A stretch of 64,000 bases of DNA from the NCBI GenBank assembly GCA_963575745.1, contig CAUYUJ010000969.1, forward strand, positions 85,553 through 149,552. Direction: 5' to 3'. Below, in pieces: positions 12,377 to 46,270 of the stretch. The first letter of the stretch is position 1. Every line of letters starts with the position of its first letter. The position numbers and the translations under genes were made by a program. The notes beneath the pieces are model-generated. The model did no database searches. It worked only from the letters and a program-made list of their open reading frames with translations, and was not told the DNA's origin. Source of the DNA: Prorocentrum cordatum (taxonomy: Eukaryota; Sar; Dinophyceae; Prorocentrales; Prorocentraceae).

Positions 12377-12389
12377 CTTCTGCACCGGA

Positions 12390-22843: not shown

Positions 22844-23152
22844 CCAGTCTTTCTTCTGAAAATCGGGGTAAGATGTCAAAGGAATTAGGGTCTCATGTTG
22901 ACTATGCTCAGTGGTGGAGGATACGGGATGAGACATCGATGCAACTGCATGTTATCCGTTAAGCAACTGTACTCAAATATAGGAAGTGAGGAGGCCGGCC
23001 AGGGACGGACGACGACACGGGCCGCCCACGCGCCCCCCGGCGCGCTCCTTTTCACACTCGAGCAGTATGATACAGCTTCGGTATGCAATGATACCAATGT
23101 CAAGGTATGGCAAGGCAGGCAGCAGGAGAGGCAAGTGTATAATGAGGCGGAG
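22844..23152 (-). repeat. Element 2 LTR, 3' copy
   Basis: It aligns base for base, without gaps, with 45962-46270 and shows about 13 substitutions, 11 of them transitions. The left end abuts (CTC)n. To the right is internal sequence whose minus-strand form is GCGGGGGGAG then TAAATATGCTCCCC, a plausible polypurine tract just before the LTR. Ends do not show a clean TG...CA, so the true LTR limits may differ by some bases. Confidence 0.9.
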
Positions 23153-23417
23153 GGGAGCATATTTACTCCCCCCGCGGCGGGTTTCGTAGAGTCCAACCAG
23201 CCACAGCCCGTCCGGCCTGTACATATTTACAGCCACCGGAGCGAACCCCAAAAGCATTTTACCGCTCAACGGTGGTTGCCAGGGGGCTGAGGGCCGGAGA
23301 AAACCCGACGAAACCCACCAATAGATAAATAAAGCCTCTCCGCCGAAACGACTGTGTCGTTCGGTCGGTGCCGTGGCGACTTGGTCGCACGGCTCGCGTA
23401 TGATCTCACTCGTCGTA
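23153..23417 (-). other. Element 2 3' non-coding segment with candidate polypurine tract
   Basis: Between the last ORF and the 3' LTR. On the minus strand, the end next to the LTR reads GCGGGGGGAG, a short purine run where a polypurine tract is expected. No ORF with protein-like composition. Confidence 0.4.
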
Positions 23418-24809
23418 CTAGAAGAACCGCGATTGTGAAGGCGGAGACGGAGGTCTCGGAGCCGCAGACGATGAGCCTCCCTTTTGCCCAGCTGCCCAAC
23501 GAGGCGCAGCTGGCTTGCCTCCCTTGCCAGAGCCAGCATAGGGAGCTGGCCGGATGTTCTTGGACTCGTCCTTGCTCTTGGCGCACCCCTTGCCTTCCTC
23601 TCTTGAGAAGTAGTAGTCGTAGTCGTTGGGGAACACAAAGTGCCACAGACGACGCATGTTTTTTCTGCGAGTCATCCAGTGTACTACGTCACGGTGAACC
23701 CAGTATCCCTGCAATCCATCCGCCGTGTACTTCGGGTAGTGGATCGCGGGGTTGTAGTCACCAGCAGCGCGGCCGGCATCCGTGGCCCCGGCGCGCGCGC
23801 GCGGACATTGACCGATCCCATGTGTCCCCGACAGAAGAACGTCTCGAGAACTCCACTCCCGCCGCGACGGTTTGACCGCCGGCGGAGTGAGGAGACCCAG
23901 TAATGTCACCGTTGGCCCGATCGTCTTGGACGGCGGGCCTTCTAGGCGGAGGAGGCGGAGCTGGGCGAGCAGCAAGGCTTGCCCTTGCTTTCGCAACAGG
24001 GCCCCTTCCGAACCGGCTGGGCCGTCGGAGGGCTCGCCAGCGCCTCCTTCCTCACGAAGACGTACTTCATGCTGCAATTTCGCGCATCTCACAATACCCC
24101 TCGCGGCAGTAGCGACATAGGCACCATATTTTCCACAGGCAATGCGAAATGGGCCTTCGTCGCTGTCTTGGATTTCAGTTGATTCCACGAATGGGTATAA
24201 GAAGAAGACAGCATCTTGCAACTTCATTCCCTGGCGACGGATCTCTGCACGACGCAGTTTTCCCAAGTCGCTGGCCCACGCCTCAATGAGGTCGTCCGTT
24301 TCGACAGCCGCACGGACACGGCAATCAAGCGCGCATGCGTCAGTGCGGCGCTTATCCGCGTCATGCCCTGCGGCTGCGTCGCGGGCATAGAGCCCGCGCG
24401 CGGGGCATGCAATGCAATACCCCTGAGCAATAAAACAACTGATGAGCTCACGGACAATCACAAACACACGCATGACACGAAGACCCAATTCAAGGTCTTT
24501 AACGGGAATCCTCCAATTCCGCACAATGGCCAGTCGCACATCGTCAGGGACAACATGTGTCAAATTTCCCGTTAGGCGCAACCTATTGGTCGCGCTCGTG
24601 TCCGGGTTATAGCATGCATGCTCCGTGACGTATTGCGCAACCACATCGGTGGCTTCTTTCTTCGTCACTGCGACGCTCAATGCGCCATCAACACGGCGAG
24701 GGTACACCTGTCCATCGGGCAGATGAAGATCGATCTTCCCGTCTAGCATAGGCCTGGGACCCGCAGACAGCGGTGAAATGGAGGGGAATCGGTTCGAGCC
24801 CCTCGTCAC
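23418..24809 (-). CDS. Element 2 cargo: last unrecognised ORF
   Basis: The 463-codon ORF reads MLDGKIDLHLPDGQVYPRRV, DGALSVAVTKKEATDVVAQY, RLAIVRNWRIPVKDLELGLR and VMRVFVIVRELISCFIAQGY. It then has a Cys/His-containing part (CIACPARGLYARDAAAGHDA), KLRRAEIRRQGMKLQDAVFF, a disordered stretch and a basic, aromatic C-terminus (YTADGLQGYWVHRDVVHWMT, MRRLWHFVFPNDYDYYFSRE). Long open length and mixed composition support coding. The family is not recognised. It is the last coding block before the 3' LTR, about 265 bases away. Confidence 0.5.
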   Translation of the reverse strand: MTRGSNRFPSISPLSAGPRPMLDGKIDLHLPDGQVYPRRVDGALSVAVTKKEATDVVAQYVTEHACYNPDTSATNRLRLTGNLTHVVPDDVRLAIVRNWRIPVKDLELGLRVMRVFVIVRELISCFIAQGYCIACPARGLYARDAAAGHDADKRRTDACALDCRVRAAVETDDLIEAWASDLGKLRRAEIRRQGMKLQDAVFFLYPFVESTEIQDSDEGPFRIACGKYGAYVATAARGIVRCAKLQHEVRLREEGGAGEPSDGPAGSEGALLRKQGQALLLAQLRLLRLEGPPSKTIGPTVTLLGLLTPPAVKPSRREWSSRDVLLSGTHGIGQCPRARAGATDAGRAAGDYNPAIHYPKYTADGLQGYWVHRDVVHWMTRRKNMRRLWHFVFPNDYDYYFSREEGKGCAKSKDESKNIRPAPYAGSGKGGKPAAPRWAAGQKGGSSSAAPRPPSPPSQSRFF

Positions 24810-25009
24810 CTGTCGTCTCGGTTTGACCGGCGACAGGTTTCACAACACTGAGAGGATGATCGGAACAGATTCTGTTGCGCCTGGATACAGACTTGGATTG
24901 ACAGGCAGGACGAGCAACAAACCGATCCGCCCAGGCAAACGGCGGACGTCCACGAGGGCTGGGCCCTGTGGCGTCCGCACCGGTGTCTTGCGCGTCGGGC
25001 AACCAGGGT

Positions 25010-25703
25010 GCGGCTCCTGTCTTCGCATCTCGCAATGTCTAAAGAGTCGGCACAAAAGTACCTGTCCTCCGCATGCTGCGCCCCCATTCATCCCAACCTT
25101 CGCCGGGTGAAATATACGAGTCGTGTGCTTCTGGCCAGTCGAAAGCAGCCAGAGCAGGACAAGAAAGGGGCGCGCATGCTGATCGATATCCGTGGCCCAG
25201 AGCAGGGGCCACCACTCAGCGATCGCTGGTGCCTTAACCCCTTGTCTCTCGGACAAGAATGCTATCCGTTTTATAAATCGCCTCTTGAGGGGTTCAAGGT
25301 GCTGAAAGGAAGGTCCATGACGCGCCGGCGGCTGGGCCGCGGCGTCGTCAGGGAACCAAGCAGGAACGCTGCCAGGGCGGCTGTTGCCAAAAGTTTGACC
25401 TGAAGCAGCCATCGTAGTGTATCCACCTTCTGCCCCTTTCCGATCCAGTTTCAAATTGTTGTTGATGTTCGCCATGACATCCGCTGACGCTCTACGCTGC
25501 CGTTCTATTCTCTCTCTAACATAGCGATCATGCGCCCAAGAAAAGGTGTCATGATCGGGAACGGTCAGCCTGAAGCCATTTCTCCACAGTGAGTCCTCAA
25601 TGGTTCTCGTCTTAAGTGACTGGAGCAAATAATTGTGCGCAACCATGCACTTGCACCTGACTGGGTTACTGCAAAAGGGGCAACGGCCGAAGCCAGTCCG
25701 CAC
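25010..25703 (-). CDS. Element 2 cargo: CxxC segment and unrecognised domain
   Basis: Begins FGRCPFCSNPVRCKCMVAHN, a C-x2-C...C-x-C putative zinc site, then LLQSLKTRTIEDSLWRNGFR and FSWAHDRYVRERIERQRRAS, a Gly/Pro linker, and FIKRIAFLSERQGVKAPAIA, then EWWPLLWATDIDQHARPFLV. After about 25130 the open frame is probably a shadow. No family recognised. Confidence 0.4.
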
Positions 25704-26211
25704 TCAGTGCAAGTCAGCGCAGAGGAACCGACCGTCGTCATCCCAGGGAACAGACCCAATGAATGCGTCTGCCCTGTCAGACCAGTGTCTAAAATCTGGC
25801 CGTAATGTCACAGTCTCGTCAGTATGAATCCAAGCAAGCATGGAACTGTCATCAAAATCTACCTCATACGAGGTCCACTCCTGATTAAAGACAAGGGACC
25901 AAAAAGTCAACTTTCGGTTCACATCTGGCCTATCGTCGACTGTGGCAAGAGTGGCAGCTTTATCGATGTCGGTGAACCTTGGCACTTCATGGGACACAAG
26001 GGTCCCGTCGCGGCAGACCCGGTACGAAAACCGGGTAAGCACACGGCCATTGAAAACAAGAACTAGTGGCCAGGAGTCTCTGTGTTTTGGAAGCTGGCCC
26101 CACAGACGGACTGCGTCCGCTGTGGGCCATGATCCAATCGTAGGAGGCTCTCCCGCCTTCGGGGCTTGGCCCATGGCGCGGTGCTCTTTCGCAGGAGCAC
26201 TCTCTCCATCC
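25704..26211 (-). CDS. Element 2 cargo: unrecognised beta-rich segment
   Basis: Reads SWPLVLVFNGRVLTRFSYRV, CRDGTLVSHEVPRFTDIDKA, NRKLTFWSLVFNQEWTSYEV and SMLAWIHTDETVTLRPDFRH, alternating hydrophobic stretches that suggest a beta sandwich. Ends FIGSVPWDDDGRFLCADLH at a stop at 25704, immediately followed in another frame by the Cys-rich segment. Family unknown. Confidence 0.45.
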
Positions 26212-26906
26212 CTACGCTGGCTTAGCCAGGAGGGAAAAACGATCTGGGCTTTGCATGATCGGATCCCGCTCGGTCGAAAGAAGCTTCAACAATCCATAGT
26301 CCGCCTCGGGACAAAGACCTGATGCGTTCATAGGGAACTGAATTTCTCCGAGCAGTGATCCCATCAACGCTTCCATGTCCGTTACATGGAGGAGAGGCCC
26401 ATGACACCTGGCTAGGCCAGGATCATAAGGCGCATACATCCTCTCGATGGAAGCAACGAACGTGGAACGTCCCTGACACGCTCGATAGAAAACGGCGACG
26501 GGACATGTAGCCCGCTCTTCCCCATGGAGGGGCCACCCCTTAAAGTCGCGCCAGTGCCGATGGACGCTGGTTTCGTTGATGCAAGCAAGGTCGTCAGGGA
26601 GAACACCTAGGACTTCCACGGTCCCTGGCTGCAACGCGGCTAGGCCGTGCGCAGCAAGTGCCACTGTTTGGTGCTCATACCCATCTTCATGCATCTTGTC
26701 CACTAGGTCTCCAAAACAGACCCAACCTCCCGAAGACCTCGCGTAACCGGAACACTGTCTTGCGAGGTGCGTAGCAAAACCTCCAATGCGCTTCGCAAAT
26801 ACATCTACTCGACCACTGTGGCGTCGCCAAAAATCCGCAGAGCCTAGGGCCGTCGGATTTTCGTCATCAGAGACGCCCACAGCCAACGGAGTCAGGGCCT
26901 TAAAGG
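26212..26906 (-). CDS. Element 2 cargo: Tpt1/KptA-like (ADP-ribosyltransferase B) block
   Basis: Reads FDPRAFKALTPLAVGVSDDE, then RVDVFAKRIGGFATHLARQC and SGYARSSGGWVCFGDLVDKM. This resembles the N-terminal winged-helix lobe of RNA 2'-phosphotransferase (L-S-K-x-L-x-x-x-L-R-H ... D-G-W-V-x-V-x-D-L-L). Further on comes CHGPLLHVTDMEALMGSLLG, which may be the H-x-T start of the NAD-binding lobe. The canonical arginines and the H-x-H were not found, so catalytic competence is doubtful. The family call is tentative. Context: a second ART-fold-like domain lies 3 kb upstream in the same cargo. Confidence 0.3.
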
Positions 26907-27330
26907 CCCGAGGATCAAATCCGCTGGGAACATCGTCAGAATAAAATTCTGCCCAGAGAAATCCCGCACCTTCTCAAAACTATATATGTCCACGGAAAAC
27001 TCGCCCAACAATGCAAATATAGGATCCACGACGAGCTCCGCGATACGTTTGAGCGTATCAAACGTTTTATCACAAAGGGCCTCGACACCAGGGGGTACAG
27101 GACCGGTAGAATGAGCCTCTCGAGCTCGCCTCTTCAACTGAACAGGCGTGCTCTCAATAAATCGAGTGCGGTCATTCAACAAAGGATAAAGCTCTTTGCC
27201 CCTGAATTGGTCAGCATGACCAACGGCAACCTCATTTTCGCCCGAACGGTGCGAATCCTCCGTCGGGCTAGGCTGCCGCATGTCAGGGGAAAGCGGCAGT
27301 GTCGCTCTGCGGAAGAAGCTGGTCGCCGCT
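26907..27330 (-). CDS. Element 2 cargo: unrecognised helical segment
   Basis: The frame reads FRGKELYPLLNDRTRFIEST, PVQLKRRAREAHSTGPVPPG, VEALCDKTFDTLKRIAELVV and DPIFALLGEFSVDIYSFEKV, ending FSGQNFILTMFPADLILGP. The start of the ORF upstream of about 27330 is a shadow of the linker. It joins the Tpt1-like block below after a frame change near 26905. Confidence 0.4.
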
Positions 27331-27608
27331 GGGCCAGACCGATAATCGTCCTCCTCGAGGAAGATAAGGCCAGGGCCCCCCCTGATGCGGAAACTCATGG
27401 AGGTCACCAAGATCTGGGCTGGCCTCAAGAGACCCCGGCGTGTCTGGGACACCCAGGGTTCTGTTCGCTGGGGAAGGCTCCGCAACGTCTTGTCCGCTCG
27501 GAGCGGCGACCGGTGGGGTTGCCTTCGCAGCGGGCGCAGCCGCATCGTCAGAAGAGCTGTGGACTTCTCTGGTAGGGGACGTTTCCGCAACCTCATACGG
27601 CGCGGCAT

Positions 27609-29375
27609 TTGTCACATCAACAGCGCCCGAGTCAACCTGCATCGGGCCCCCCTGCACCAGCGTGTTCTCCGCTCTGGCTGGGCCAGGCGGAGGTTTAGGT
27701 CACCTACCGCCACGGCTGGGCCGGACGGAGGTGCAGGAGGAGCAGGCACCCCGTCCACCCACGGTGAGGCCGCTCTCAGTGCGAGGCTGAGAACTCTCGC
27801 TCTCGGCGGCAATCTCAGGGGTAGGAACGAAATCTGATTTCGCGTTCTTGATATGGTCTACAACAGTGGCTGCAAATTTCTTCTACGGGTTCGAGTACTC
27901 TCCTGGCTGATGTGTCTTCTTTTTCTGTGCAATATTGTATACCTTCATTGCGGCTTCAGTTTGCACCTCCATTTCCTGCAAATTATCAGGATCCTCCTCG
28001 ATCGCTGGGTCCGCGGAAATTGCACGACTCCACTGGATGAAGAAGTCGCGCTCATTCTTGAGCGCATTGCGGGCTCGCTTTCCAGCAACGTGGCAATGTG
28101 AAACTTCTTTGGCGGTCCGGACAATATTGGACGCAGCGCCATTCCCTTCTGGGGCCAGAGATTCCTCTGACGAGGGATCTCCGCCCATCTGATTCGGGAG
28201 AGGGACTGCAGGAGTGTCCAGCCTTTGCCTCCGGGGCGACCAGAGCCCACACCCTCGGCAGTCTTGGCTTCTATCTCAACTGCAACAGCCTTTGCCACGG
28301 GGCCCTCGGTCTTCACGGCCGGGTTCACCCCAGCACCGCCTTGGGCAGACGGGGGAGGCCCCGGAAAAGTTTTAAACTGCGACTGCTGAGGTGCCGCCTT
28401 GGGCGCAGCGTCAGCTTGCTGACGCCTGTAGTCGGTGCATGGTTGACGCTGAACCGTCCATCTCGAAGCTCGGGGAGCAGGCGGAGGCGAACGGAGACGT
28501 GGTGTCCAAGTTGGCCTGCCCGGAGGCACAGGCCAAGCCTGGGGCTTGCCTTCCGTCGCCCCTGCGCCTGACGGCTTGGCCGTTGGCCGCGCAGCCGTAG
28601 GTGCAGCATCAGCGGGCCTGGCCGGTGATCTCTCCCCAGTAGCTGCGGCACTCGCCGGTCGGACTGAAGGATTGTCGGCTCCAGTATCAGCGCCAGCCGT
28701 CTTGGCCGGCGGAGGCTTCGCCATTGAAGCAACACCCCTCGGATCGAATGGTGGCGGAGGCTTCTTCGGCACATTGCCCGCCGGCCTAACTGGAGGCGGA
28801 TCCTTCTTCGGCGCAACGTTCGCCGGCTTGGCCGGTGGCGGCGCCATCTTTGCCATGGCATCCATTGGCCTATCTGATGACGGCGCCCCCCTTGGCGGAG
28901 GCGGCGGCACAGCCGCATTCGCAGCTGCGCTTGTCGCGGGAGGAGGAGGCACCACCTCAGCCACGGCTGTGCTGGGCGGAGAATGGGGCACCCCCTCAGC
29001 CTCCGACGCAGGCCGTCCCAATGGGGGAAAATACTCGGCAGCAAGCGAAAATGAGGCGTCGGGAAGCCTGGCCGCCGGCGCCTGGGCGTGAGCATCCATT
29101 GGTGTTGTGGCTTTGGCCTTGTCTTCATTTTCTTGATTAGCCCGAACGAGCGCCTTGGATTTCTCCGAGGCCTCATCTTTATGCAATGGGTTATTCCTAG
29201 TAATTCTAACTCCCTTGTCTTGGGGCCATGGCCACATATCATCAAACTCTGAGCGACACGGCCGGCAAGGATCGCGATCCTTCTGCCGAACGACGGGCCC
29301 CAAGGTTGGGACCCACTGCCTCTGTGCATCTCGGACTTGGTCCGCGGCATCCACTCTCTCCTTGTCGCGATAACG
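27609..29375 (-). CDS. Element 2 cargo: Pro/Ala-rich linker with short ordered parts
   Basis: Starts DAADQVRDAQRQWVPTLGPV and RPCRSEFDDMWPWPQDKGVR, then about 250 residues of Pro/Ala-rich repeats (PPPAKPANVAPKKDPPPVRP). A frame change near 28200 leads to VSHCHVAGKRARNALKNERD, FFIQWSRAISADPAIEEDPD and EAAMKVYNIAQKKKTHQPGE, an ordered helical piece, then another disordered linker. No function recognised. Confidence 0.4.
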
Positions 29376-29800
29376 CTAAACCCCGAAGTCTTGCTCCAGG
29401 GGCCACTTCATTTGTCCGGCGACATGTTGCAAGAAAGTGTAAGCCTGAGTGGCATGAAGTGCCGCTGGCGTCCAACGGTACAAGCGAAGCTCACTTAACA
29501 CCATCTGAGATGGGCCACTACAAAACTGATCGGGCATGCCCTTGATGCGCACAGGCTTTGCATAGAAAATAACCTCCGCAGATACCCAGATGCCATCTAC
29601 AAAAGTCTCCTCTGCAACAGAATATGTAGTATGTGTAAAGGGATCATCAATACAAGGGAAAGAATACACGCCCACGTGCCCCTTTTTGAAACCCGCTCCG
29701 TAGCAGGGATTCGATGGGAGCAACTGATGGCCCTCCAATATCGATTGGAGGGCGGTCACAGACGTACCGTGGACTGTCTGCTCCATCCTGAGGACGGGTC
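29376..29800 (-). CDS. Element 2 cargo: ADP-ribosyltransferase-fold-like domain A
   Basis: The frame reads EQTVHGTSVTALQSILEGHQ, LLPSNPCYGAGFKKGHVGVY, then SFPCIDDPFTHTTYSVAEET and GIWVSAEVIFYAKPVRIKGM, ending at a TAG at 29376. An H-G-T-S followed by an A-L-x-x-I-L helix, an L-x-P-S and a G-V-Y strand is the arrangement seen at the NAD-binding end of PARP and Tpt1/KptA-type proteins. The call is by eye. Other H-G-T-S proteins (for example phosphoesterase-like) are possible. Start codon unclear, since it is probably an internal polyprotein domain. Confidence 0.4.
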
Positions 29801-29941
29801 TTGGACCTCCTCAAGCTTGTCCGCCGTTACAAGGAAGGGCAATGTGAGCCGTGTACAGTGCATGTTCCCCGCCTCGTGGGTCTTGGTCGACAATTTTGCC
29901 CAATCCAGGCCATCAGCAACGGTGGCCTCTGGATCTTCACA

Positions 29942-30729
29942 TCACCGATCGGCCTTAATCACAAAGAAACGCAGCCAAATGGGAGCCATATAAGAAGGAT
30001 CCAAGACAGGGGTCTTCGTGGATGCATGTAGCATCTGGCTACCCAACCAGGCATCTCCTGGAGCATGAATCTGGATGGTATTGAACTCTTTGCTGCGGGC
30101 CGGATTTTCTCCTTTCGCAATTTTTTCAACACGGTCCTCCTCCCCTGGGTAACAGTTCCCAGGCATCATAGGTACAGACGTTACAGGGGCGAGCACGGGG
30201 CCGCGGGGCGGCTGGGCCGCCCGCTCTGCAGTAACATTACCCGAGGCGGCTGGGCCGCTGGGTTTGGCAACAGACACTACCTTCGACAGCTCCTCTACCG
30301 CAGGGCGCATATGTTGATCATGTTGCACCCCCTCCGTAGGCAATCGGAGGCGTTCCCCTTCCGGGGGCATGCCCGGACAAAAGGAAAGACACCGAGGTAA
30401 GAAATATCGATGATCTCGCCGGGGATAAAACTCTGCGTGCACATTCCCTCGTTTGAGAAAACCAACGAACTTGTCGGAAAGTTTGGAATGAATAGCCCCG
30501 CCCCCTGTCCCGTCTTGGACGGCAGGGAACTCAACGGGGTTCGACGGTATCCGAAATGGACGAGTGTTGAGCACAGACTTGGGCACATTGTTCTCAGTGG
30601 GGTTCCAATCTTGCCAGTGCATGCCAATCTGTTTGAAGGTAGCCTCCTCTGGCGCGCGCCCGCCGGCTCTTTTCTTCGCCCGTGGGTTACCCTCCCGAAC
30701 GGCTGGGCCGCTGGAGGGTCGGCAAAAGA
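29942..30729 (-). CDS. Element 2 cargo: unrecognised ORF (basic, Pro-rich)
   Basis: The ORF continues from the SGNH-like region without a stop. A basic stretch (GNPRAKKRAGGRAPEEATFK) is followed by WQDWNPTENNVPKSVLNTRP, KLSDKFVGFLKRGNVHAEFY, a linker with hairpin-encoded AAQPP/GPAAS motifs, and EFNTIQIHAPGDAWLGSQML, then LDPSYMAPIWLRFFVIKADR. No family recognised. The end could start the next domain, which follows after a frame change. Confidence 0.4.
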
Positions 30730-36447: not shown

Positions 36448-37241
36448 CTAAAATCGCGGGCAACTCACCTTGCCACTCGACTGTGTGGATAGCCGGTGTT
36501 CGCAGCCCAAATATCGCCCGACCGCTGTCGGAGGGTCGACCTCTATGCTTATGGGGCAATTGGGAGATGGGGATTGTAACAGCTTCCATCCTTGGGTTAG
36601 CTTGTCGGCAGGACCGGCCAGCCTAAAATCAGAGACATATATTAGCCAGAAAAGTTTCAATTCTGCGTGGAAATAACAGCTGCGCCACGGGCTACATTTC
36701 ACGAAGCCGTTAGCCGTAACACGCCCTTCGCCGTGCTCCCAATATCCCCCTGAATCAGGGCGCCCATGCAGAGACAAAATCAACGGGCACACGGGGTTGC
36801 GCATATGCGACCAGGACTCAGGCCACTCATCACGGGGCAGGAACACCCATGTCGGGGTGCCACCCAGCCTTGATTGAGCGCAGGCCTGACGGGCGTCGGC
36901 TTGTTCGATACTATGGCCTTCGAAGGGCCCGTAGGAGTCAGCTGCTTTGCTGGCCTGCATTGTAGCAGGGCCGCTGGAAAGTTCTTGAAACACCGCTGCA
37001 TCTTTATTCTGATCTCTCACGCTAGAACCGCCGAAGACGACCCGACCTTTATACTTGCGGTCTTTGTGTCCGAGTGGCAGCTCGGAATTCTTCTCGTCAA
37101 AGATCGCGAAGGGGCGACCAAAGTGGACAGTCTCCCCATTGACTTCCGCAACAACAGCAGCATGTGTTTGACGCCTTTCTCGTGCCATGTGCCTATTTCA
37201 TGCAACCGGCCCCACTCCTTCCTCAAAGGCGCCCTTGGCAT
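36448..37241 (-). CDS. Element 2 reverse transcriptase (copia type, YVSD)
   Basis: The N-terminal part (RAPLRKEWGRLHEIGTWHEK) joins through a frameshift near 37185 to VAEVNGETVHFGRPFAIFDE, KNSELPLGHKDRKYKGRVVF, then GHSIEQADARQACAQSRLGG (motif A region, Asp kept) and TPTWVFLPRDEWPESW, all typical of copia RT. The catalytic box reads FWLIYVSDFRLAGPADK, so the first Asp of YVDD is Ser (codon TCT). Without that Asp polymerase activity should be lost. Together with frameshifts this marks a dead copy, unless YVSD is shared by related elements. Confidence 0.85.
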
Positions 37242-38400: not shown

Positions 38401-39572
38401 CCGTCATCATCATCGGAATCGGCCTCGGAGTCCGGCGGCGGCGCGCTCTCGCCTCCTCGGGGAGGCGGCGGCATAATCACGGCGGGATCCTCTGCACAAT
38501 ACGGGTGGACCGATTGCGCTCCTGCCCCCTGCCCCGAGCCGTCCGGGACGGCCGCGGCTTCGCCGGCGGGAGGAGTCGCAACGGAGCGCACTTCAGTCAT
38601 CGCCTTCTCGTGCGCTTTCCTCATCGGAAAATGGGGCGATTGGTCATCAGCAGTGCCATCTAGGACTTTGCTGTAGACTTGATCGGACTTATCTATGGCG
38701 GGTCGCTTGCCTTCGGGCGTGCGCCCTGATTCCACGTTAAGTCCATCTAGCTGTCTAAACAGCACAACATAGCTCTCTGGACCAACCATGCCCCCCGCTT
38801 TGTGTACATACCTCAGGTATAATCCAGGAATCATTGCACCGCCAGTCTTGGCGATCCGAAACCTCGGTTCTGGCGGGGGCACATAACGTACAAGAGACCC
38901 GAAGGGAAGAAGCGGTGCCTCAAACGGATGTCCAAAGCGACGTTCCCAACTCGACTTCCCTTCCTCAGGGGCCCTGGCGTTGTAGCAGAGACAAAAATAT
39001 CTGACGGCATACGTCCAATATGGCGGTGGGAGACCGGCCTGCATGAGCAGAGCTCGAGTCCCCATCTGTACCACGCCGTTTGCACGTTCGGCAACAGCGT
39101 TTTGCTTCTTGTTTCCTGGGATGGTAGGATCATGGGCAATCTTGAGCTCGTAACATGCCCTTGCAAGCTCGCGTGCACCATCTGTATAACAGTATTCGAA
39201 CTTCTCTCCCGGGGCTTTAAGGTTTACTAAAAAGTTACAAATGTGAACCGCAGACTTGTCGTGCACACCCTGAGCGGCGAGAAAATCAGTTGCTCGGTCG
39301 CGAAAAGTCACGCACGCGGTCTCATCGTGGAGCCCCCGCGAGAGTTCATCCATCGCAGACCAATGATCCATCGTCGTCAGGTGTCCAAACGAAGTGGGGT
39401 TAGCGCATGGACGGGGAACCTTCAGCCCTTTGTTGCGCGCTTTGCGCTGCTGTCGTCTGCTAGCTTTGGCCCAATTGCATACTGAGCAATATGGGTTCTT
39501 GGGAGTATGAGTTAGGAGATGCGGAAGGGAGGCTGCGGCCTGCTCAAGCTGCTCGGCAAGGGAACCCGACAC
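38301..39572 (-). CDS. int: Element 2 integrase
   Basis: The zinc-binding part reads LPHLLTHTPKNPYCSVCNWA (H-x3-H...C-x2-C). The catalytic core follows: FGHLTTMDHWSAMDE (first Asp, near 39370), EYCYTDGARELARAC (second Asp, near 39185), NAVAERANGVVQMGTRALLM (Glu, near 39090). Next come the copia-type W-x-x-x-F/Y-x-C-x-N segment (WTYAVRYFCLCYNARAPEEG) and FGHPFEAPLLPFGSLVRY. All three acidic residues are present and the core is open. After an acidic linker the frame shifts near 38390. Confidence 0.85.
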   Translation of the reverse strand: MSGSLAEQLEQAAASLPHLLTHTPKNPYCSVCNWAKASRRQQRKARNKGLKVPRPCANPTSFGHLTTMDHWSAMDELSRGLHDETACVTFRDRATDFLAAQGVHDKSAVHICNFLVNLKAPGEKFEYCYTDGARELARACYELKIAHDPTIPGNKKQNAVAERANGVVQMGTRALLMQAGLPPPYWTYAVRYFCLCYNARAPEEGKSSWERRFGHPFEAPLLPFGSLVRYVPPPEPRFRIAKTGGAMIPGLYLRYVHKAGGMVGPESYVVLFRQLDGLNVESGRTPEGKRPAIDKSDQVYSKVLDGTADDQSPHFPMRKAHEKAMTEVRSVATPPAGEAAAVPDGSGQGAGAQSVHPYCAEDPAVIMPPPPRGGESAPPPDSEADSDDDDGLGGLCAWRASLRSLTVGARSETLAQMKIKIRS

Positions 39573-39593
39573 CTCAACCTCTGAATCATCTGG

Positions 39594-40472
39594 TCATGGT
39601 TCTGACGGCTCGTCGATGTCGACTAGGTCGACACCGTCAGCGTCTCCAACTTCACCCTCCTCGGGCCCGGGGGCCGCGTCGCACGCATTGGAGTCCAACC
39701 CTTGATCCATGTTGTAGGGGAGGTATCCTGAGACCCCGTACCAACAAGGGCTCTTATACGCGGCTGCGCGGGCCACGGCTTTGCCGGGCTGAACGTCGGC
39801 CCCACCGACGGCATGGCCGTGGCAGGGCAAAGACGAGAGACACTCGGAGGCAGCGATGCCGGTAGGTGTCCGAATCCAACAGCATTCGCTAGCCTTACGA
39901 GGCGAATAGTAAAAATAAGTGATGGTATCCGCAGAGTCTAATGAGGACGGAAAAACGGGCGCGAACTCAGTCGGCCGCCCGTCAACGTAACTGTGGCTTC
40001 CAATCAACTCATGTGTATGCAAGTCTCTGGTTACGCGAGTCTGAACAGCATTGGGCGGAGGGCCTCCCGCCGATTCCACATTGCCCAGAAATGCCTTGGC
40101 GCCTGGCGTCACGCAACACAACCGCCCGGGGATATCACCCTCTCCAGCGGCAACCGCGCACATCCACTGACCCAGCGCCTTTTTGCCTGACAGGGTCAAG
40201 CATGGAATCTTGCCCTCAACGATCAGGTCCACTCTTTGACCGTTGGGCAACAGAAGGTAGGGCCTTCGGCCTGCTGGCCAGAAGAAACTAAAGCCGCGAT
40301 CCATGCACCGCTCTCCTACCGAAATCACGCACGGAGTCTCCGGCATGACCAATGCGTTAAAACTACCACCCTTAAATTTAGGGCACGCGACGCGAACTGA
40401 ACCGAAGGCTTTAGATTCTCCCCCGGCAATATTCAGAGCGATCGATTGCGGAAGCTTTCGAATCAGTCTCAT
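39594..40472 (-). CDS. Element 2 protease, C-terminal part
   Basis: The ATG at 40472 overlaps the stop of the Gag ORF (ATGA). The frame reads RLIRKLPQSIALNIAGGESK, then FNALVMPETPCVISVGERCM and FFWPAGRRPYLLLPNGQRVD, the expected remainder of a retropepsin-like fold after the DTG in the upstream ORF. It then becomes linker and ends DEPSEP at a TGA. The next ORF (integrase) is in the same frame, so one TGA separates protease from integrase. Confidence 0.65.
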   Translation of the reverse strand: MRLIRKLPQSIALNIAGGESKAFGSVRVACPKFKGGSFNALVMPETPCVISVGERCMDRGFSFFWPAGRRPYLLLPNGQRVDLIVEGKIPCLTLSGKKALGQWMCAVAAGEGDIPGRLCCVTPGAKAFLGNVESAGGPPPNAVQTRVTRDLHTHELIGSHSYVDGRPTEFAPVFPSSLDSADTITYFYYSPRKASECCWIRTPTGIAASECLSSLPCHGHAVGGADVQPGKAVARAAAYKSPCWYGVSGYLPYNMDQGLDSNACDAAPGPEEGEVGDADGVDLVDIDEPSEP

Positions 40473-43400
40473 TGCACTTGCACTTTTGATATCTTTCCGC
40501 CATAAAGGTTATACCCACACCCCGTATCAATGATAAAGCTCAGCGCTCCAAGACGTGCAGCATCTTTGTCTGCACATCCCGCAGCGGCTGCGCCGCGCGG
40601 GCCCTCTTCCCCCTCCTCGGTCCTCAACCAAAGGTGCCAGACATCAGCTTGTAGGTATGATGCCTTGATTAGGGCCTCCGCCGCAGACGCTCCCCACTGG
40701 GTGGATAACTGCTGGCGCACTTCAGCTGGGGACCTCCACCTATCTTCGCAACTCGAGGGCAACTCTTTTAGGTCGTGGCGACGCGCCCTCCTACAAGCGA
40801 TGGCGGGTTCCGCAGTCGAGCGGCGAAATCGGACGCGGAAGTTGCACCGGCCCTTTGTCTGAGATCGAACGCAGCTCTTGCTAGGGGGTTCGCTCCAATA
40901 CATCTTGATAGCGCCCCGGGAAAGAGGGCGCAGGAAATTTGCAAGAATATTTACCAGATTCTCAACTTGCCCCCTGCGCACGCGGAGGGATTCTCCACTG
41001 GAGGGGCGTTTCTCAACTCCTCCGCATATATTTATAAAAGCCTTTGGAAAATGAGGGCCGGCCTGCTTCTGCCCAGGAATGCCCCGAATTAGCGGGGCAG
41101 GGCGCGCTATCGCGCCCAGGCTGACTGGGTCAGTGGACACGCCCCTGCCTCCCCGCATTCGGTCTGAACGACGCGAGCGTCGCCGCGTCCGTCTAGCGAA
41201 GAAGGCAAGAAATATTATCCTTAACAAAATGAATCCAATCAGTCCATCTGCACTGGCGGCTGGGCCGCCAGTGCTGAGCCAGTGTCGCGGATGGTTGGGC
41301 GTGGTCTGAGCGAACCAACAATCCTTTCCACGCGTGCACTTTCCCGTTTCCTTGAAAGAGCGACACGTCATGTCCTGACCGTTGCCTTTGCCCATGCTTT
41401 TGTCTCCATCTCTCCTGCGTCTCTCCGAACTGGCGATGGCGGCCCCAGAGCCACCACCACCCGCAGATGAAGAAACATTGGCAGCAGCGGCATTGGCTTG
41501 TTCAGTTGCGCACTCATATCCCAGAGTCTGTCCCGCATTGAGCTTCGCTTGTTCAAACTTGTCGCGCTTGAGCTTTTCTGCGTCGGTCAAGGCTCTGTGT
41601 TGCCTGTAGCAACCGTCTGGGGGTCCACGGCAGTTCTTAGGATCACGTGAAAAAGGGTAACACGGCAACTTGCTCTGTTTTCCGCGCGAACGATCGCATT
41701 GACCCCTATTGCGTTGCTGCGCACCCTTTCCACGGCCACCCGCTGGGGTCTGTGATCGGCTCTGTGCCTTTCGGTATCCGCCTTTGGGTTTCTCAGACCT
41801 CCTTCTGGAACTCGCACTCGGAGCCGGGGCAGCATTCGATTTAGCCCCCGCAACCGGCTGGGCCGGAGCGGCGGCTTTAGGCTTCTTATGATTAAACGGG
41901 CAACCCTGACCTGCATGCGGGCAGGTCTCGCCCTTACGCACAAACTTGCACGTCGTCTCGCCCTTGGTCACTCCGTTCTGCATAACGTCCGCGGGTTCCC
42001 CAAGACGCGCTGCCACTTCTGCCGCAGCGGCTTTGCCGTTGAGGCCTCGGCGGTTGTCGTTGCCGTTGCCTCCACCGCCGCCCAATCGCGTCTGTCGAGC
42101 ACGTTGATTCAAAGTACCCTCATGCAAACTTATGTTCCATTCTTCCTTCTCACACAACATCATCCATTCAATCTGGGTTATGAGCCATTCGTAGGTTTGC
42201 ATGCCCTCTCCTAGCTTGTCCGTGGACAAATCATAAAGTTGGCAGACTAGTTCCAACTTCTTCGGCTTCCTGCATTGCTCAATGAAGTGTGCATGGATCG
42301 AAGCTCGCGTCTCATCAGACGGAGGTCGTACGCCGTAGAGTTGCTGATGCACATCCGCCCACTCATTATAGAAATTGTATAAATCAGCATCTGGGCGATT
42401 GGGGTCAATAACTACCTTGAAGATGTCACGCGAAATGCGATGTTGACTTAACTCCGATCTGACTGAGCACCAATAGCAAATGGCTCGTATCATTTCGCGC
42501 CCTGTTAAGAGTCTCTGCTCATTCTGGGCGCCGCATTCCATACGATTGGTCTGTTGGAGGAAGTGAATGTGATGAGCGGAAAGACTGCGATCCCTACGCA
42601 TTTTGCTAAATTTCTCCATCAGGTTAGTGGCAATCATGATGTCTAGACGCTGGGATCGACCTGGATTTCTTAGCTGTTCTTCAGTCACAGAGGGGCCCAT
42701 AGCTTCCATGATCCAGAGCTGTGCTTCCCGAATCTCAGGAGACGATCCAGCAACAGCGCGAACCGCATGCATCTGCCACTCCCGTATGTTTGTAACATCG
42801 GGAATGCCCATCAGATCAACCTTCTGGTTGTTCCCAACCTGTCTCCACTGATCCAGAGGGGGGCTCTCGTCATGGCCTCCCGGGTCATTGGGCCCTCCTG
42901 GGCCCTGAGGTCCGCCACGACCGCCCCCACCGCCTGGGGGCCCAGGACCCCCCGGACTCCCTGGCGGCGGCTTCTCCGACTGGTCTCGAATGGCATTGGC
43001 GAGTGCTGACAAGATCTCGGTACTTGGTGCGGTACTATGATCATCCCCATCCTTGTCTTGCCCTGCCCCGCCAGGCGGCGTGGCCGCTGGCGCATGACCC
43101 TCACCTCCACCAGACGGCTGGGCCGTTGTCGGTTTCGCTGGTCCCGCCATGGTGAAAGGGTGATAGTCAATAAAGGTCATGCCATCAGTAATACCTGTCA
43201 ACTCCGCATTGATGGGCACATTGTTCCTGGAGATGCCTGGCTTGGCCGGACCTTCGGTTGCAGGGCCAGGGACAGTATAATGGGGTTGCATGATTGGCCT
43301 CACGGGCGTGTCCTGTGAAAGCCGGGGCATGTCGAACAGACTGAACCTGGGCAACTTATCAAATTCTCGATATATTGCAAGGACTATATTCCCATAGTTC

Positions 43401-43882
43401 TCGGCATCTGTTTTGCCCTCTCGATCATGGCCGCTTCGTGGTCGGCAGATTGCAGTTGAGACTGCGCGTTTGGCCCTGATTTCTTTCCAGGATTCAGTGA
43501 TGACAGCCTCGAGCTCCATCGCTTCTTTCTCTGACGCAGCTGCGCGTGCCAACGCCTCATCTTTCTCTCGAAGGTTGGCAGCTGACCAATCTGAGCCCAG
43601 TCGGAGCTGTTCCTCAGCTTGCTCCTTCATCCGCTGCATATTACGTTTATCAGCGTAAAAAATCATCAAGGAGCTTCTGCTGTTGGGCCCCAAAATTGGG
43701 ATCAGCGCTATGTCGCTGCCATTGCCCACCCCACTCCACCTGTTCCACGGGCAAACTCTTTCGTCGAGTACAAGTGACGCAACGTCTGGTGCTCGTGTCA
43801 AAGTGGTTTCTACGGCTTGGCAATCTGCAAGTAGCGCATGTTCCGATCTTCGGACTCGAGCATATTGAACAACTCTCTCCAT
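40469..43882 (-). CDS. gag: Element 2 Gag with CCCH zinc fingers, ending at the protease active site
   Basis: The ORF spans 1137 codons; real coding probably begins near 43650 (FYADKRNMQRMKEQAEEQLR). A Pro/Gly linker is followed by a helical Gag domain (WQMHAVRAVAGSSPEIREAQ, LSAHHIHFLQQTNRMECGAQ, YNFYNEWADVHQQLYGVRPP). Three CCCH-type fingers follow: CKFVRKGETCPHAGQGCPFNH near 41950, CYPFSRDPKNC...GCYRQH near 41665, and CRSFKETGKC...CWFAQ near 41370, the last with its His replaced by Gln. CCCH fingers instead of a CCHC knuckle are unusual for copia Gag. The ORF ends with the retropepsin motif FIIDTGCGYNL near 40530, canonical D-T-G, and stops at 40469. Confidence 0.75.
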   Translation of the reverse strand: MERVVQYARVRRSEHALLADCQAVETTLTRAPDVASLVLDERVCPWNRWSGVGNGSDIALIPILGPNSRSSLMIFYADKRNMQRMKEQAEEQLRLGSDWSAANLREKDEALARAAASEKEAMELEAVITESWKEIRAKRAVSTAICRPRSGHDREGKTDAENYGNIVLAIYREFDKLPRFSLFDMPRLSQDTPVRPIMQPHYTVPGPATEGPAKPGISRNNVPINAELTGITDGMTFIDYHPFTMAGPAKPTTAQPSGGGEGHAPAATPPGGAGQDKDGDDHSTAPSTEILSALANAIRDQSEKPPPGSPGGPGPPGGGGGRGGPQGPGGPNDPGGHDESPPLDQWRQVGNNQKVDLMGIPDVTNIREWQMHAVRAVAGSSPEIREAQLWIMEAMGPSVTEEQLRNPGRSQRLDIMIATNLMEKFSKMRRDRSLSAHHIHFLQQTNRMECGAQNEQRLLTGREMIRAICYWCSVRSELSQHRISRDIFKVVIDPNRPDADLYNFYNEWADVHQQLYGVRPPSDETRASIHAHFIEQCRKPKKLELVCQLYDLSTDKLGEGMQTYEWLITQIEWMMLCEKEEWNISLHEGTLNQRARQTRLGGGGGNGNDNRRGLNGKAAAAEVAARLGEPADVMQNGVTKGETTCKFVRKGETCPHAGQGCPFNHKKPKAAAPAQPVAGAKSNAAPAPSASSRRRSEKPKGGYRKAQSRSQTPAGGRGKGAQQRNRGQCDRSRGKQSKLPCYPFSRDPKNCRGPPDGCYRQHRALTDAEKLKRDKFEQAKLNAGQTLGYECATEQANAAAANVSSSAGGGGSGAAIASSERRRRDGDKSMGKGNGQDMTCRSFKETGKCTRGKDCWFAQTTPNHPRHWLSTGGPAASADGLIGFILLRIIFLAFFARRTRRRSRRSDRMRGGRGVSTDPVSLGAIARPAPLIRGIPGQKQAGPHFPKAFINICGGVEKRPSSGESLRVRRGQVENLVNILANFLRPLSRGAIKMYWSEPPSKSCVRSQTKGRCNFRVRFRRSTAEPAIACRRARRHDLKELPSSCEDRWRSPAEVRQQLSTQWGASAAEALIKASYLQADVWHLWLRTEEGEEGPRGAAAAGCADKDAARLGALSFIIDTGCGYNLYGGKISKVQVQ

Positions 43883-44054
43883 TGCCCCCTTTCGCGGGCC
43901 GCGGCTGCCGAGCAGCTCTTACTCGCAACATTGGCGGCGCTCCGCCTTCCAGGGGCGCCGAGCCAGGCTGGGCCTGCGACGACGTCGCACCAGACGGCTG
44001 GGCCGCCGGCGACGGTCGTCTGCTCGCCCCCGCCGGCACAGCCGGCAGGCACAT
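43650..44054 (-). CDS. Element 2 second Cys-rich segment
   Basis: Reads CSICSSPKIGTCATCRLPSR, then HFDTSTRRCVTCTRRKS, with four C-x2-C-like pairs, followed by VEWGGQWQRHSADPNFGAQQ and QKLLDDFLR. The part before about 43880 may be in a different frame (ERGQWRELFNMLESEDRNMR). It connects through a frameshift near 43650 to the main Gag ORF. Confidence 0.45.
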   Translation of the reverse strand: MCLPAVPAGASRRPSPAAQPSGATSSQAQPGSAPLEGGAPPMLRVRAARQPRPAKGGNGESCSICSSPKIGTCATCRLPSRRNHFDTSTRRCVTCTRRKSLPVEQVEWGGQWQRHSADPNFGAQQQKLLDDFLR

Positions 44055-44208: not shown

Positions 44209-44640
44209 CTATCGCGGCCCCCCCCCTTCTATCCTCGCCGCCGCAACAGCGGCGCAGGCGGGCTCGGCATCTACAGATTGACTGTTTGCCGTTATGGCAG
44301 CCTGTCGGTCAGAGGACATTGCCTCAACAACCCTGTCCTCGGCCTCTTCCTCCGCGCGCTGCTGGGCAGCCGCGGACTGATAGGACATTTGTTCCATCAA
44401 GTCTTGCCCCCGCCTACTGGCAGCTCGGGCCAGGGCGACTCTATCGGCCTCGAACATCCTCCGGGCATCGGCAATAACTGCGTTCATTTCTTCTCGATCC
44501 AGTCGGGCCTGTTCAGCCCTCTGAGCCTCCAGGACCATGATTTCTTGCTGTCTCTTGGCCTCAACGAATCTGGCCTGATCCTGCATGGCTGGGATAAGAA
44601 GGCATTGGCAGCTATGTTCTTCCATCTGAAAAACAATCCT
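44209..44640 (-). CDS. Element 2 coiled-coil segment of Gag region
   Basis: The sequence is charged and heptad-like throughout: FVEAKRQQEIMVLEAQRAEQ, then ARLDREEMNAVIADARRMFE, then SAAAQQRAEEEAEDRVVEAM. It lies directly downstream of the Cys-rich segment after a frame change. A long coiled coil next to zinc domains suggests a role in capsid assembly, but that is inference. Codons before about 44640 in this frame are a shadow. Confidence 0.45.
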   Translation of the reverse strand, partial: RIVFQMEEHSCQCLLIPAMQDQARFVEAKRQQEIMVLEAQRAEQARLDREEMNAVIADARRMFEADRVALARAASRRGQDLMEQMSYQSAAAQQRAEEEAEDRVVEAMSSDRQAAITANSQSVDAEPACAAVAAARIEGGGPR

Positions 44641-45083
44641 CACACAACCATTGATTGCCGCAATTAGGACACGCGTCAGAACAGTTTCCACACACTGGGC
44701 GCTTGCAGGGTCCGCCCTGTTCGTGAGTTTTCCCCGGGCACCTGTTCCCCGCCTGGGGCGGGCAGTCGGGGCCTCGGTTCCAGCATACCTCACGCATGGA
44801 TGCCGTACTGTTACTTCTCTGAAGTCGATCGTGCACCAGATCGTGGCATCTTGGGCCTTCCCCTGCTCGACGCAGACGATCGAGGGCGAACGTGCGTGCT
44901 TTCCGGTGGCTTGGCCACCTCTCGAAGCTCCTCATCCCGTTCATCCTGTTTAACCAACTCAGTGAGCGTTGCTGAGGGGTTGAACATCACGTCATCCTCA
45001 ACTACCGCGGGCATTGACGGTTGCCAATCGCCTGGGGCGACGGCAGTTCGATAGAACCCTTCCTGAAGCGGGGAATCATTCAA
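44612..45083 (-). CDS. Element 2 Cys-rich zinc-binding segment
   Basis: The first part (45083 on, EGFYRTAVAPGDWQPSMPAV, ATLTELVKQDERDEELREVA) shifts frame near 44920. It continues to STASMREVCWNRGPDCPPQA, NRCPGKTHEQGGPCKRPVCG and NCSDACPNCGNQWLCEDCF, about ten Cys in 50 residues at 44797-44645 with C-x2-C pairs typical of a binuclear zinc domain. Family not identified. It is likely part of an extended Gag. Confidence 0.5.
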
Positions 45084-45229
45084 ATCATAATTTCGTTCCT
45101 GTGCTTCTTATGTTGAGGAGCCGGCGTTCAACCTGTGGTCTCCCGGTCATGCTTCACATGACATTGGGAACTCATTTCTACCTTGGCCGCCTGGGGCGGC
45201 AGGTCACTGACCGTGGTGTCTAAATCTGG

Positions 45230-45793
45230 TTATGCGAGCGCTTTCCCAAGGGCTTCCAGGTGATCGTAGTCAACGGTTTCTTGCCCAGGGGATGACCTTC
45301 CGTCTGGGACGGGGTGGTCAGCAGCGCTCATTAGCGACAAATCTCGGTTTGGTGATACATGATCATTCGCATACTCTATGTCTGCCTCCATGGAGTTGAT
45401 ATCGTCTTCGTCATCAAGCTGTTCGTCGCTGTCTTGACCGGGTTGCCCGTTCAAGGCTATCGGGATGGGGTGGGTCTCATGCGTGCGACCCCAACCGTCT
45501 GGGACGGCGGGGAGCGCACCGCCGGATTCCTTTACGTCTTGCGACCCACTGGCTGGGCCAGCGGCCAGCTCGACAAAACGCACGGCAGAAGGGCTGGAAC
45601 GTATTGTCTCTGAGGATTCAGCTATCCAAGATGAAAAAGCTCTTCGCCTGGCATTTACGGCTGCGCCGTCCCGCCTTATCGGGTCTAGGGTTTGTTCACG
45701 ATCCCTGATCGGAATACGAGTGGGAGAATCATTTACTGACAAGTCTATGACTTCTCCCGCGCCCCTTCCACGAGAAATCCGAGTGGGATTAAA

Positions 45794-45832
<39 letters not shown>

Positions 45833-46054
45833 GCCCTCCCCCGGGCCGCTGTCCTGATGTTCTTGCCCGTCTCGATGCACAACGTGTGATCCAGCGGTCA
45901 ATTCGGCTGTCTCAGCATAGCTCATCCCTATTGCGATTTGGTCGCGGGTTTCGGCTGAGAACCAGTCTTTCCTCTGAGAATCGGGGTAAGATGTCAAAGG
46001 AATTAAGGTCTCATGTTGACTATGCTCAGTGGTAGAGGATACGGGATGAGACAT
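45230..46054 (-). CDS. Element 2 leader ORF starting inside the LTR
   Basis: The ATG at 46054, inside the LTR, opens MSHPVSSTTEHSQHETLIPL, then TSYPDSQRKDWFSAETRDQI. A Ser-Leu run comes from a (GA)n tract at 45797-45830. The rest is acidic and disordered (DEQLDDEDDINSMEADIEYA) and ends ALGKALA at 45230. The 3' LTR encodes the same first 30 residues (start at 22936) before running into microsatellite. No domain recognised. It could be the N-terminus of Gag or a separate product. Confidence 0.55.
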
Positions 46055-46270
46055 CGATGAAACTGTATGTTATCCGTTAAGCAACTGTACTCAAGTATAG
46101 GAAGTGAGGAGGCCGGCCAGGGACGGACGACGACACGGGCCGCCCACGTGCCCCCCGGCGCGCTCCCTTTCACACTCGAACAGTACGATACAGCTTCGGT
46201 ATGCAATGATACCAATGTCAAGGTATGGCAAAGCAGGCAGCAGGAGAGGCAAGTGTAGAATGAGGCGGAG
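45962..46270 (-). repeat. Element 2 LTR, 5' copy
   Basis: Same length as the other copy. It contains on the minus strand the ATG at 46054 that opens the leader ORF. Just inside it the minus strand reads TGGTTCTCAGCCGAAACC, which begins with the TGG expected of a tRNA primer-binding site, but the tRNA was not identified. On its outer side it runs straight into (TCC)n. Confidence 0.9.

Follow-up and report, generated by a model that had tools for sequence, protein, structure and literature searches.

Layout of the element

The window analysed here is a 64,000-nucleotide stretch of the 4.13-Gb genome of the dinoflagellate Prorocentrum cordatum. Positions 22844-46270 are occupied by element 2, a 23.4-kb LTR retrotransposon read on the minus strand. 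Its 5′ LTR (45962-46261) and 3′ LTR (22844-23143), both on the minus strand, form a direct pair with 96% identity. Matches of the family LTR are found genome-wide, and many copies share the same layout. A first look at the genome gave 1171 LTR candidates, and 40 of them were scored.

The protein labels of element 2 rest on motifs and unnamed homologues. The open frame at 40469-43918, on the minus strand like the other frames, carries a Gag-like region together with CCCH zinc-finger motifs and IDTGCG, a protease-like motif, and it is 45% identical to P0002 across the aligned part. We infer that it is Gag. The CCCH motifs were read in its translation, with Pfam zf-CCCH appearing only at E 0.6, and a fold search with a segment of Gag gave no support for the label. 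The frame at 38301-39593, 53% identical to the unnamed homologue P0001, is presumably an integrase from its motifs; a Pfam search with it returned no match. On motifs of the same kind, we take 36448-37197, which has 75-76% identity in the loci of a sister family, to be a copia RT and 34449-35657 to be an RNase H. The RT-like frame had no relevant match in Pfam and none in a PDB-sequence search, and Pfam gave no backing to the RNase H label. The order of integrase upstream of RVT_2, again presumed from motifs, fits Ty1/copia, with no relevant Pfam match for the RT and integrase frames. Element 2 also has about 11 kb of additional 3′ open frames.

An array of hairpins in one orientation

About 65 sites in element 2 share one structure, instead of the roughly 30 counted in the first-pass annotation. 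Each is composed of a variable outer stem, an asymmetric internal loop and the tip CGnC-TKG-GnCG as written on the plus strand. In sense RNA the tip reads CGnC-CMA-GnCG, where M is C or A (loop CCA or CAA). The outer stem, the sense-strand loop and the loop switch described below had been missed. The stems had been thought to differ freely, and this is correct for pair -3/+3 and the outer stem, where most of the variation lies; the 4-bp tip itself follows the consensus CGnC/GnCG. The pattern CGxC-TKG-GyCG occurs 35 times in element 2 and never on the opposite strand. Its x and y are complementary in 32/35 cases, with all four pair types represented, and in 193/209 cases within slightly overlapping pieces of six copies. 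The outer stem played no part in the choice of sites. Its extension score reached 4 or more in 62% of 60 sites versus 19% of 3000 random positions, and Watson-Crick pairs filled 184 of 392 outer cells versus 130-166 when the arms were slid by -2, -1 or +1.

Triloop hairpins with a stem of at least 5 bp number 82 within 22844-46270, and on the plus strand the loop is TGG in 25 and TTG in 9. These 34 compare with a mean of 0.93 in 60 second-order Markov simulations, and for stems of at least 4 bp the numbers are 54 and 3.6. The reversed loops CCA and CAA stay close to background (2 versus 1.2 at 5 bp, 6 versus 3.8 at 4 bp). Both the single orientation and the excess over random sequence that had been claimed are borne out. 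All nine hairpins of at least 6 bp reported earlier were found with the right coordinates and loops, and a TGG or TTG hairpin begins at 19 of the 21 reported 5-bp starts. At 43974 there is TGCGAC-GAC-GTCGCA instead, the TGG hairpin being at 43964-43976, and the loop at 26217 is TTA.

All sites are read on the minus strand, their loops are given for the plus strand, and bit scores are matches to the structure model. They are present in every 2-kb bin of element 2 and not in the leader only. Loop TTG is found at 23365-23397, 23856-23888, 23910-23942, 24807-24839, 26150-26182, 28383-28415, 28560-28592, 28812-28844, 29321-29353, 29785-29817, 30499-30531, 31958-31990, 35057-35089, 44895-44927 and 45427-45459. 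Loop TGG is found at 24002-24034, 24944-24976, 25317-25349, 27429-27461, 27663-27695, 27701-27733, 28524-28556, 30197-30229 (7-bp tip), 30235-30267, 30688-30720, 32000-32032, 32264-32296, 33353-33385, 33383-33415, 35310-35342, 36020-36052, 36356-36388, 43103-43135, 43953-43985, 43983-44015, 45017-45049, 45176-45208, 45289-45321, 45484-45516 and 45538-45570. The loop is TAG at 26397-26429 and 26625-26657 and TGA at 32114-32146. Sites recognised by the model only are 26096-26128 and 28686-28718 (15.6 bits each), 31919-31951 (16.1 bits), 36175-36207 (18.4 bits) and 43064-43096 (17.2 bits). The remaining sites are given below with their sister or copy comparisons.

The motif is nearly confined to one element group within the DNA sampled. 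With both strands counted, the window flanks hold one paired tip whose loop ends in G, 55 kb of random genome holds one with a loop in G and two with a loop in A, and six other copia-type pieces (33 kb) hold two with a loop in A. To the right of element 2 there are five 6-bp TGG hairpins, of which four belong to a 73-bp tandem repeat (49565-49798) and the fifth lies at 47935-47949, and element 1 holds a loop-CAA tip at 14052-14064. The earlier statement that no such hairpin lies elsewhere in the window is not exact. An Rfam scan of the window at gathering thresholds gave no matches, and a targeted literature search found no comparable hairpin array in any LTR element.

Constraint among copies and the loop switch

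Most hairpin sites are kept in six other copies of the family. Divergence among these copies is 5.0% in the tip with its loop, 7.6% in the outer arms, 10.4% in the internal loop and 10.0% in the rest, with a dip on both outer arms. At four-fold sites it is 4.6% in tips and 12.6% outside, and at G/C positions alone it is 4.2% and 7.9%. The two LTRs within each of the six copies differ by 5.4-6.7%. The tip value does not exceed this range, and the tips have therefore barely changed beyond post-insertion decay. Since four-fold sites outside the tips reach 12.6%, selection on the nucleic acid predates insertion. The alignment of related copies, which had been proposed as a check, showed that paired bases covary; for example, the hairpin at 28560-28592 has a two-sided change of A-T to C-G in five copies. 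The site set is not rigid across the seven copies. A strict TGG or TTG tip is present at 71 places in any of them, at 48 places in at least five and at 12 in all. The site at 45922-45954 (site 45939), some 20 nt away from the 5′ LTR, has kept its tip in 6/6 other copies and not in the window copy.

The sister family is 73-76% identical to element 2 over the main segments, and its four loci are themselves related at 84-90% identity. The tip is kept there at 16/17 mapped sites, and compensatory changes are seen in the hairpins. G/C cells of the tip stem differ from the sister in 30/182 cases at mapped sites that were not selected for a sister hairpin, so the constraint is milder than the 6.2% difference at 10 sites selected for having one.

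The third loop base is G in element 2 and A in the sister family at 11 of 15 comparable sites (of 65 in the array), with one count per site and no polarity assigned. The background change from G to A is 11.6% for all G, 9.1% for the third G of TGG/TTG and 5/30 in CTGGG/CTTGG elsewhere. The binomial P is 4e-8 against the all-G rate and 3e-9 against the third-G rate. Paired tips whose loop ends in G or A number 34 and 1 in the element and 3 and 33 in the sister. The sister loop is TGA at the TGG hairpins 41110-41142 (closing pair C-G to T-A), 41245-41277 (11-bp perfect stem), 41843-41875 and 44738-44770, at the TTG hairpin 32578-32610 and at the TAG hairpin 34434-34466. It is TGA in 3/4 loci at 37764-37796 (TTG, one mismatch), TTA at 38230-38262 (TTG), TTA in 2/3 loci at 44347-44379 (TGG) and TAA or CAA at 39608-39640 (TAG), and it ends in A at the model-only site 37508-37540 (15.1 bits). 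At 40573-40605 loop TGC faces TGA, TGC or TGT, and the tip of 37640-37672 (TTG) is broken in the mapped sister loci. No switch is seen at four of the 15 sites. These are 32707-32739 (site 32724), with TGG in both families; 33010-33042 (site 33027), where TTG faces GGC with one broken pair; 40682-40714 (site 40699), a TGG site degenerate in the sister; and 38528-38560 (site 38545), a tie in which CGG faces TGA in two loci and TGG in two. The TGG hairpin at 40772, set aside as off-motif, retains TGG in all four sister loci.

Candidate readers of the hairpins

The RNA of element 2 would carry about 65 short hairpins along its entire internal region, and a single element-specific factor may recognise all the loops. 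Its specificity would have shifted in one lineage alongside most of the loops. With less certainty, this factor may be the element's Gag with its CCCH zinc-finger motifs, and the hairpins would then be dispersed packaging or assembly signals through which Gag selects and compacts the 23-kb RNA that encodes it, to the exclusion of RNA from sister elements. As in known dispersed packaging signals, many stem-loops with variable stems share a loop motif, and conservation between related genomes exceeds that of neighbouring sequence. We give about even chances to this reading, in which the hairpins are RNA signals for a single element-specific factor and Gag, packaging the genome that encodes it, is the most probable candidate.

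Other explanations were weighed against this one. The tips often encode AQP, GPA or AKP, as expected if they arose from codon or protein bias in Ala/Pro/Gln linkers. However, the probability of such an origin is negligible. Synonymous-codon shuffling of 16 minus-strand ORFs, a codon-matched control suggested earlier, left a mean of 3.3 tips (maximum 9 in 200 shuffles) versus 40 real ones. The 46 tips within a single frame occupy mainly two reading phases (22, 21 and 3 across the three), four-fold sites are constrained in the tips, and the switch at phase-1 sites alters the protein by turning a Pro codon into Ser, as read from the codons. Tiny mobile hairpin units repeatedly inserted into the retrotransposon would explain the numerous near-identical tips and their strand bias. 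On the other hand, flank identity is 0.261 versus 0.255-0.256 at random positions, target-site duplications are not clear (mean longest match 1.5 versus 1.3), the seven copies show no clean hairpin-sized presence or absence over 60 sites, and the sister family, about a quarter diverged, has tips at the same places with compensatory changes. Spread of this kind is very improbable. The first-pass annotation had left the choice between unit spread and selection on structure, and only the latter is backed, strongly, by the outer stem, the pairing, the four-fold constraint, the codon shuffles and the loop switch. A mutational process in hairpin loops (C-to-U deaminase or editing) might have produced the family difference with the reader unchanged. 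The switch is indeed C/U at the first loop base of sense RNA, and PMC11453091 reports nuclear RNA editing in P. cordatum. Such a process leaves the conservation of the hairpins unexplained, the middle C of the sense loop becomes U in only 1/33 cells, and the G/A difference is unpolarised; we consider it improbable.

The functional form could also be single-stranded DNA, namely minus-strand cDNA with loop TKG, with a role during reverse transcription or integration, for instance. The constraint operates before insertion, as this would require, and wobble pairs show no preference for sense RNA. Plus-strand departures amount to 36 G.T and 38 A.C in one count and 36 G.T and 32 A.C in another. In the comparison of the two families, the tips show 3 G.T and 10 A.C, a lean towards sense RNA, and the outer arms show 29 G.T and 16 A.C, a lean the opposite way. 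These pairs do not settle the functional strand. Tips are predicted to form more frequently in sense RNA (mean 0.77 versus 0.52), a difference that in the model comes from the tip itself and not from adapted flanks. We know of no dispersed cDNA hairpins with a role in LTR elements, and the DNA form is quite unlikely. More credible, although still rather doubtful, is an RNA-binding factor that reads the hairpins at a different step in the life of the element's RNA, namely its export from the nucleus, its stability, its shielding from silencing by the host or control over translation of its many open frames. All the evidence for a common reader fits it equally, the additional 3′ frames could encode such a reader, and the sites extend well beyond the leader. 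However, if the reader came from the host, no difference between sister families of one genome would be expected, and with so many sites assembly would be a better fit than export or stability.

The hairpins might serve as an identity code among sister retrotransposons in one nucleus, in which the roughly 65 loops of an RNA bear one letter and a change in the reader's specificity shifted most of them to another; this we propose tentatively, at somewhat less than even chances. If so, each sister family would package only its own RNA. About 65 sites per RNA, the LTR candidates of the genome and at least two loop states form a natural experiment, from which sequence data together with simple binding assays could reveal the letter, its reader and the order in which they changed.

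In our view, it is still a matter of debate how LTR elements and RNA viruses tell their own genome from cellular RNA, and dispersed signals are difficult to demonstrate because their sites are few and degenerate. Retroviral and Ty1 packaging signals are complex regions close to the 5′ end and are not known to form arrays along the whole RNA. Bulged hairpins of the IRE or MS2-operator type have a short upper stem, one or more unpaired bases on one side and a recognised loop. The hairpins of element 2 resemble them in the upper stem, the one-sided unpaired bases and the shared loop, with no sequence relation seen. Dispersed hairpins of the REP or MITE type are many small inverted repeats. Those of element 2 differ in fixed orientation, in near restriction to one element group within the DNA sampled and in the absence of mobility marks; as candidates for a mobile or MITE-like repeat they were rejected, since clear target-site duplication, shared ends and clean presence or absence at homologous sites were not found. 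Retroviral and Ty1 signals, as described in PMC8096270 and PMC8396678, would have in common with element 2 a structured RNA of an LTR element bound by Gag. Dispersed packaging signals of ssRNA viruses and hepatitis B virus are described in PMC6281560 for MS2, picornaviruses and HBV, with STNV and others also among the examples, and like element 2 they have many genome-wide stem-loops with a common loop motif and variable stems. Element 2 differs from these viruses in being an LTR retrotransposon of 23 kb with about 65 putative binding sites, and in its defined tip with an internal loop, its strict triloop and the parallel loop change in the sister family.

Element 2 and its hairpins

The LTRs of element 2, a 23.4-kb retrotransposon at 22844-46270, are 300 nt each and 96% identical (22844-23143 and 45962-46261). 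Its long open frames resembling retrotransposon genes lie on the minus strand. Therefore, the minus strand was taken as the genomic RNA, in which the TGG/TTG loops of the plus strand become CCA/CAA. Wobble pairs, used as a strand test, gave no decision. The predicted folding of the tips was 0.77 for the sense RNA and 0.52 for the other strand, and this bias was rejected as strand evidence because flank shuffles proved it intrinsic to the tip. CTC/TCC microsatellites adjoin both ends of the element (22794-22845 and 46272-46579), and thus it was probably inserted into, or beside, such a repeat. The window has a GC content of 58.5% and belongs to an assembly of 4.13 Gb in 21,875 contigs. The P. 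cordatum genome is given as ~4.15 Gbp (PMC10449503), and 59.7% stands in a table column taken as GC (PMC11453091).

The first-pass annotation had described many small hairpins with a fixed loop, always in one orientation, and their excess over chance was confirmed. Hairpins with a TGG/TTG triloop and stems of at least 5 bp numbered 34 against 0.93 in simulated sequence, and those with stems of at least 4 bp 54 against 3.6; the reverse loop orientation was near the simulated background. Codon bias was one competing explanation of the motifs. Shuffling of synonymous codons in 16 frames left a mean of 3.3 tips, with 9 as the highest of 200 shuffles, against 40 observed. The pattern CGxCTKGGyCG (K = G/T), in which pairing is not a criterion, occurs 35 times in element 2 and 0 times on its opposite strand. 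Its x and y bases are complementary in 32 of these occurrences, and in 193 of 209 in pieces of six other copies.

The anatomy was determined from a divergence profile of 60 sites aligned on the loop. Divergence is low in the tip stem (-5 to -2 and +2 to +5), rises in an internal loop (-8 to -6 and +7), and is low again in the outer arms (-15 to -9 and +8 to +12), with background values beyond. An outer-arm stem extension scoring at least 4 was found at 62% of the 60 sites and at 19% of 3000 random positions. Watson-Crick pairs fill 184 of 392 outer-arm cells, compared with 134, 166 and 130 when the arms are slid by -2, -1 and +1, the slide of -1 being the second-best register. In the whole structure 72% of cells are paired (55% shuffled, 33-52% slid; 56% for the outer helix alone), a figure that counts the inner stem, itself selected for pairing, so that the extension, slide and CGxCTKGGyCG tests are fairer.

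Four of the 60 first-found sites (29501, 40772, 33678 and 32046) were left out before the model and the divergence counts, and a hairpin model scored in bits was built on the other 56. At 16 bits or more it marks 56 places in the window, mostly its own training sites, all inside element 2 and 55 of them on the plus strand. Nine further sites found by the model, some scoring near the best outside match of 15.8, bring the 56 training sites to a total of about 65, at a mean spacing of 346 nt; none lies in the LTRs. Neither element 1 (7458-13714) nor arbitrary genome sequence (55 kb, including 2.6 kb of N; best score 14.9) had a match of at least 16 bits. Six other copia-type pieces, 33 kb together, held two, of 22.5 and 16.1 bits. 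The former, on the sense strand of one such locus (L036:4197-4229), may be a chance match or a distant case. One 17-base pattern counted genome-wide gave 8 matches against 7 for its reversed control and was uninformative; scans of IMG/VR and GTDB found no relatives.

Some hairpins lie outside the array. A single GGCCCC-TGG-GGGGCC hairpin stands to the right of element 2 (47935-47949), and a 73-bp tandem repeat (49540-49813) carries four GAGTTC-TGG-GAACTC hairpins, which also occur twice, 73 bp apart, in a random locus (L030, 586-673). In element 1, the frames on the minus strand show a CCHC knuckle, judged by eye, and a weak match to an integrase core (E 0.0019, short of the Pfam cut-off).

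Constraint on the tips among the copies

Six further full-length copies share 87-92% identity with element 2 in the main segments and carry hairpins mostly at the same sites. A strict TGG/TTG tip is present in any of the seven copies at 71 places, in at least five at 48, and in all at 12. Spread as hairpin units, one of two explanations offered in the first-pass annotation, would leave clean empty sites. These were not seen: the 60 aligned sites differ by point changes or ragged deletions. At 30170-30172 the window copy lacks about 275 nt present in all six others, a segment that includes a further TGG/TTG tip in copies A, B, C and F.

Divergence against the window copy is biased downwards because the sites were picked as perfect in it, and comparisons between the six other copies were used instead. 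These gave 5.0% for tip and loop, 7.6% for the outer arms, 10.4% for the internal loop and 10.0% for the remainder. Four-fold sites differ by 4.6% in tips and 12.6% outside, and G/C positions by 4.2% and 7.9%. Codon positions 1 and 2 outside the hairpins are changed at 8.9%, more than the tips; therefore, the tips are under stronger constraint than the proteins. The LTR-LTR divergence within each copy, a proxy for decay after insertion, is 5.4-6.7%. Since tip divergence is close to this value and other positions are higher, the latter also changed before insertion. The tips are strongly constrained during replication of the element and look free of constraint once in the chromosome.

Parallel loop switch in a sister family

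A genome search with P0001, an integrase-like homologue (53% identical), gave 98 scored hits of 3974 candidates, element 2 and its family members among them. Four hits, fetched as 8-kb loci, form a sister family whose main segments share 73-76% identity with element 2, and a fifth piece of 3 kb was located near one of them. In the four loci the model marks 17 places at 16 bits or more, each of them antisense, the orientation also found in element 2. Sixteen of 17 mapped window sites have, in one or more of the sister loci, a tip with at least three of four pairs. At these unchosen sites 30 of 182 G/C tip-stem cells differ from the sister, a figure used in place of the 6.2% tip difference at ten sites hand-chosen for having a sister hairpin.

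Loop base 1 is retained in 41 of 43 sister cells. At loop base 3 a G of the window corresponds to A in 33 of 43 cells, compared with 14% for G positions elsewhere. Typical exchanges, window to sister, are TGG to TGA, TTG to TTA and TAG to TAA. With one vote per site and the same rule for all 65 sites, 15 were comparable: 11 switched from G to A, one was tied and three did not switch. The G to A background is 247/2133 for all G, 26/287 for the last G of TGG/TTG and 5/30 in CTGGG/CTTGG elsewhere. Among paired tips, loops ending in G and A number 34 and 1 in element 2, and 3 and 33 in the sister. The sister's 16 reverse-strand matches to the A form are not independent, as TTA and TAA are reverse complements. 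At 41127 the closing pair changed from C-G to T-A along with the loop; the off-motif hairpin at 40772, left out of the counts, keeps TGG. For stem covariation, a check proposed in the first-pass annotation, the comparison of element 2 with the sister gave 11 distinct two-sided changes at eight sites.

A candidate reader of the loops

Most comparable sites show the same loop change with their stems still paired, an effect that one shared reader of the loops would cause. Sister families in one nucleus differ, and therefore such a reader is likely to be encoded by the element. Gag would be the obvious candidate, since it must pick out the element RNA and its frame carries predicted CCCH zinc-finger motifs (by motif; Pfam is weak). 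Dispersed packaging signals are a proposed feature of ssRNA viruses and hepatitis B virus (PMC6281560). In our working model, which applies this proposal to element 2, the hairpins would be such signals. Targeted searches of open-access papers turned up no hairpin array of this kind in an LTR element.

The protein names of element 2 rest on motifs: neither Pfam nor a search of PDB sequences with the RT frame supported them, nor did a fold search of a Gag segment (model mean pLDDT 72; best E 1.7). The region at 23144-34400, downstream of the RNase H-like frame, has about 11 kb of open frames on the minus strand; those scanned gave no Pfam match at E 0.01, and the region may hold accessory genes.
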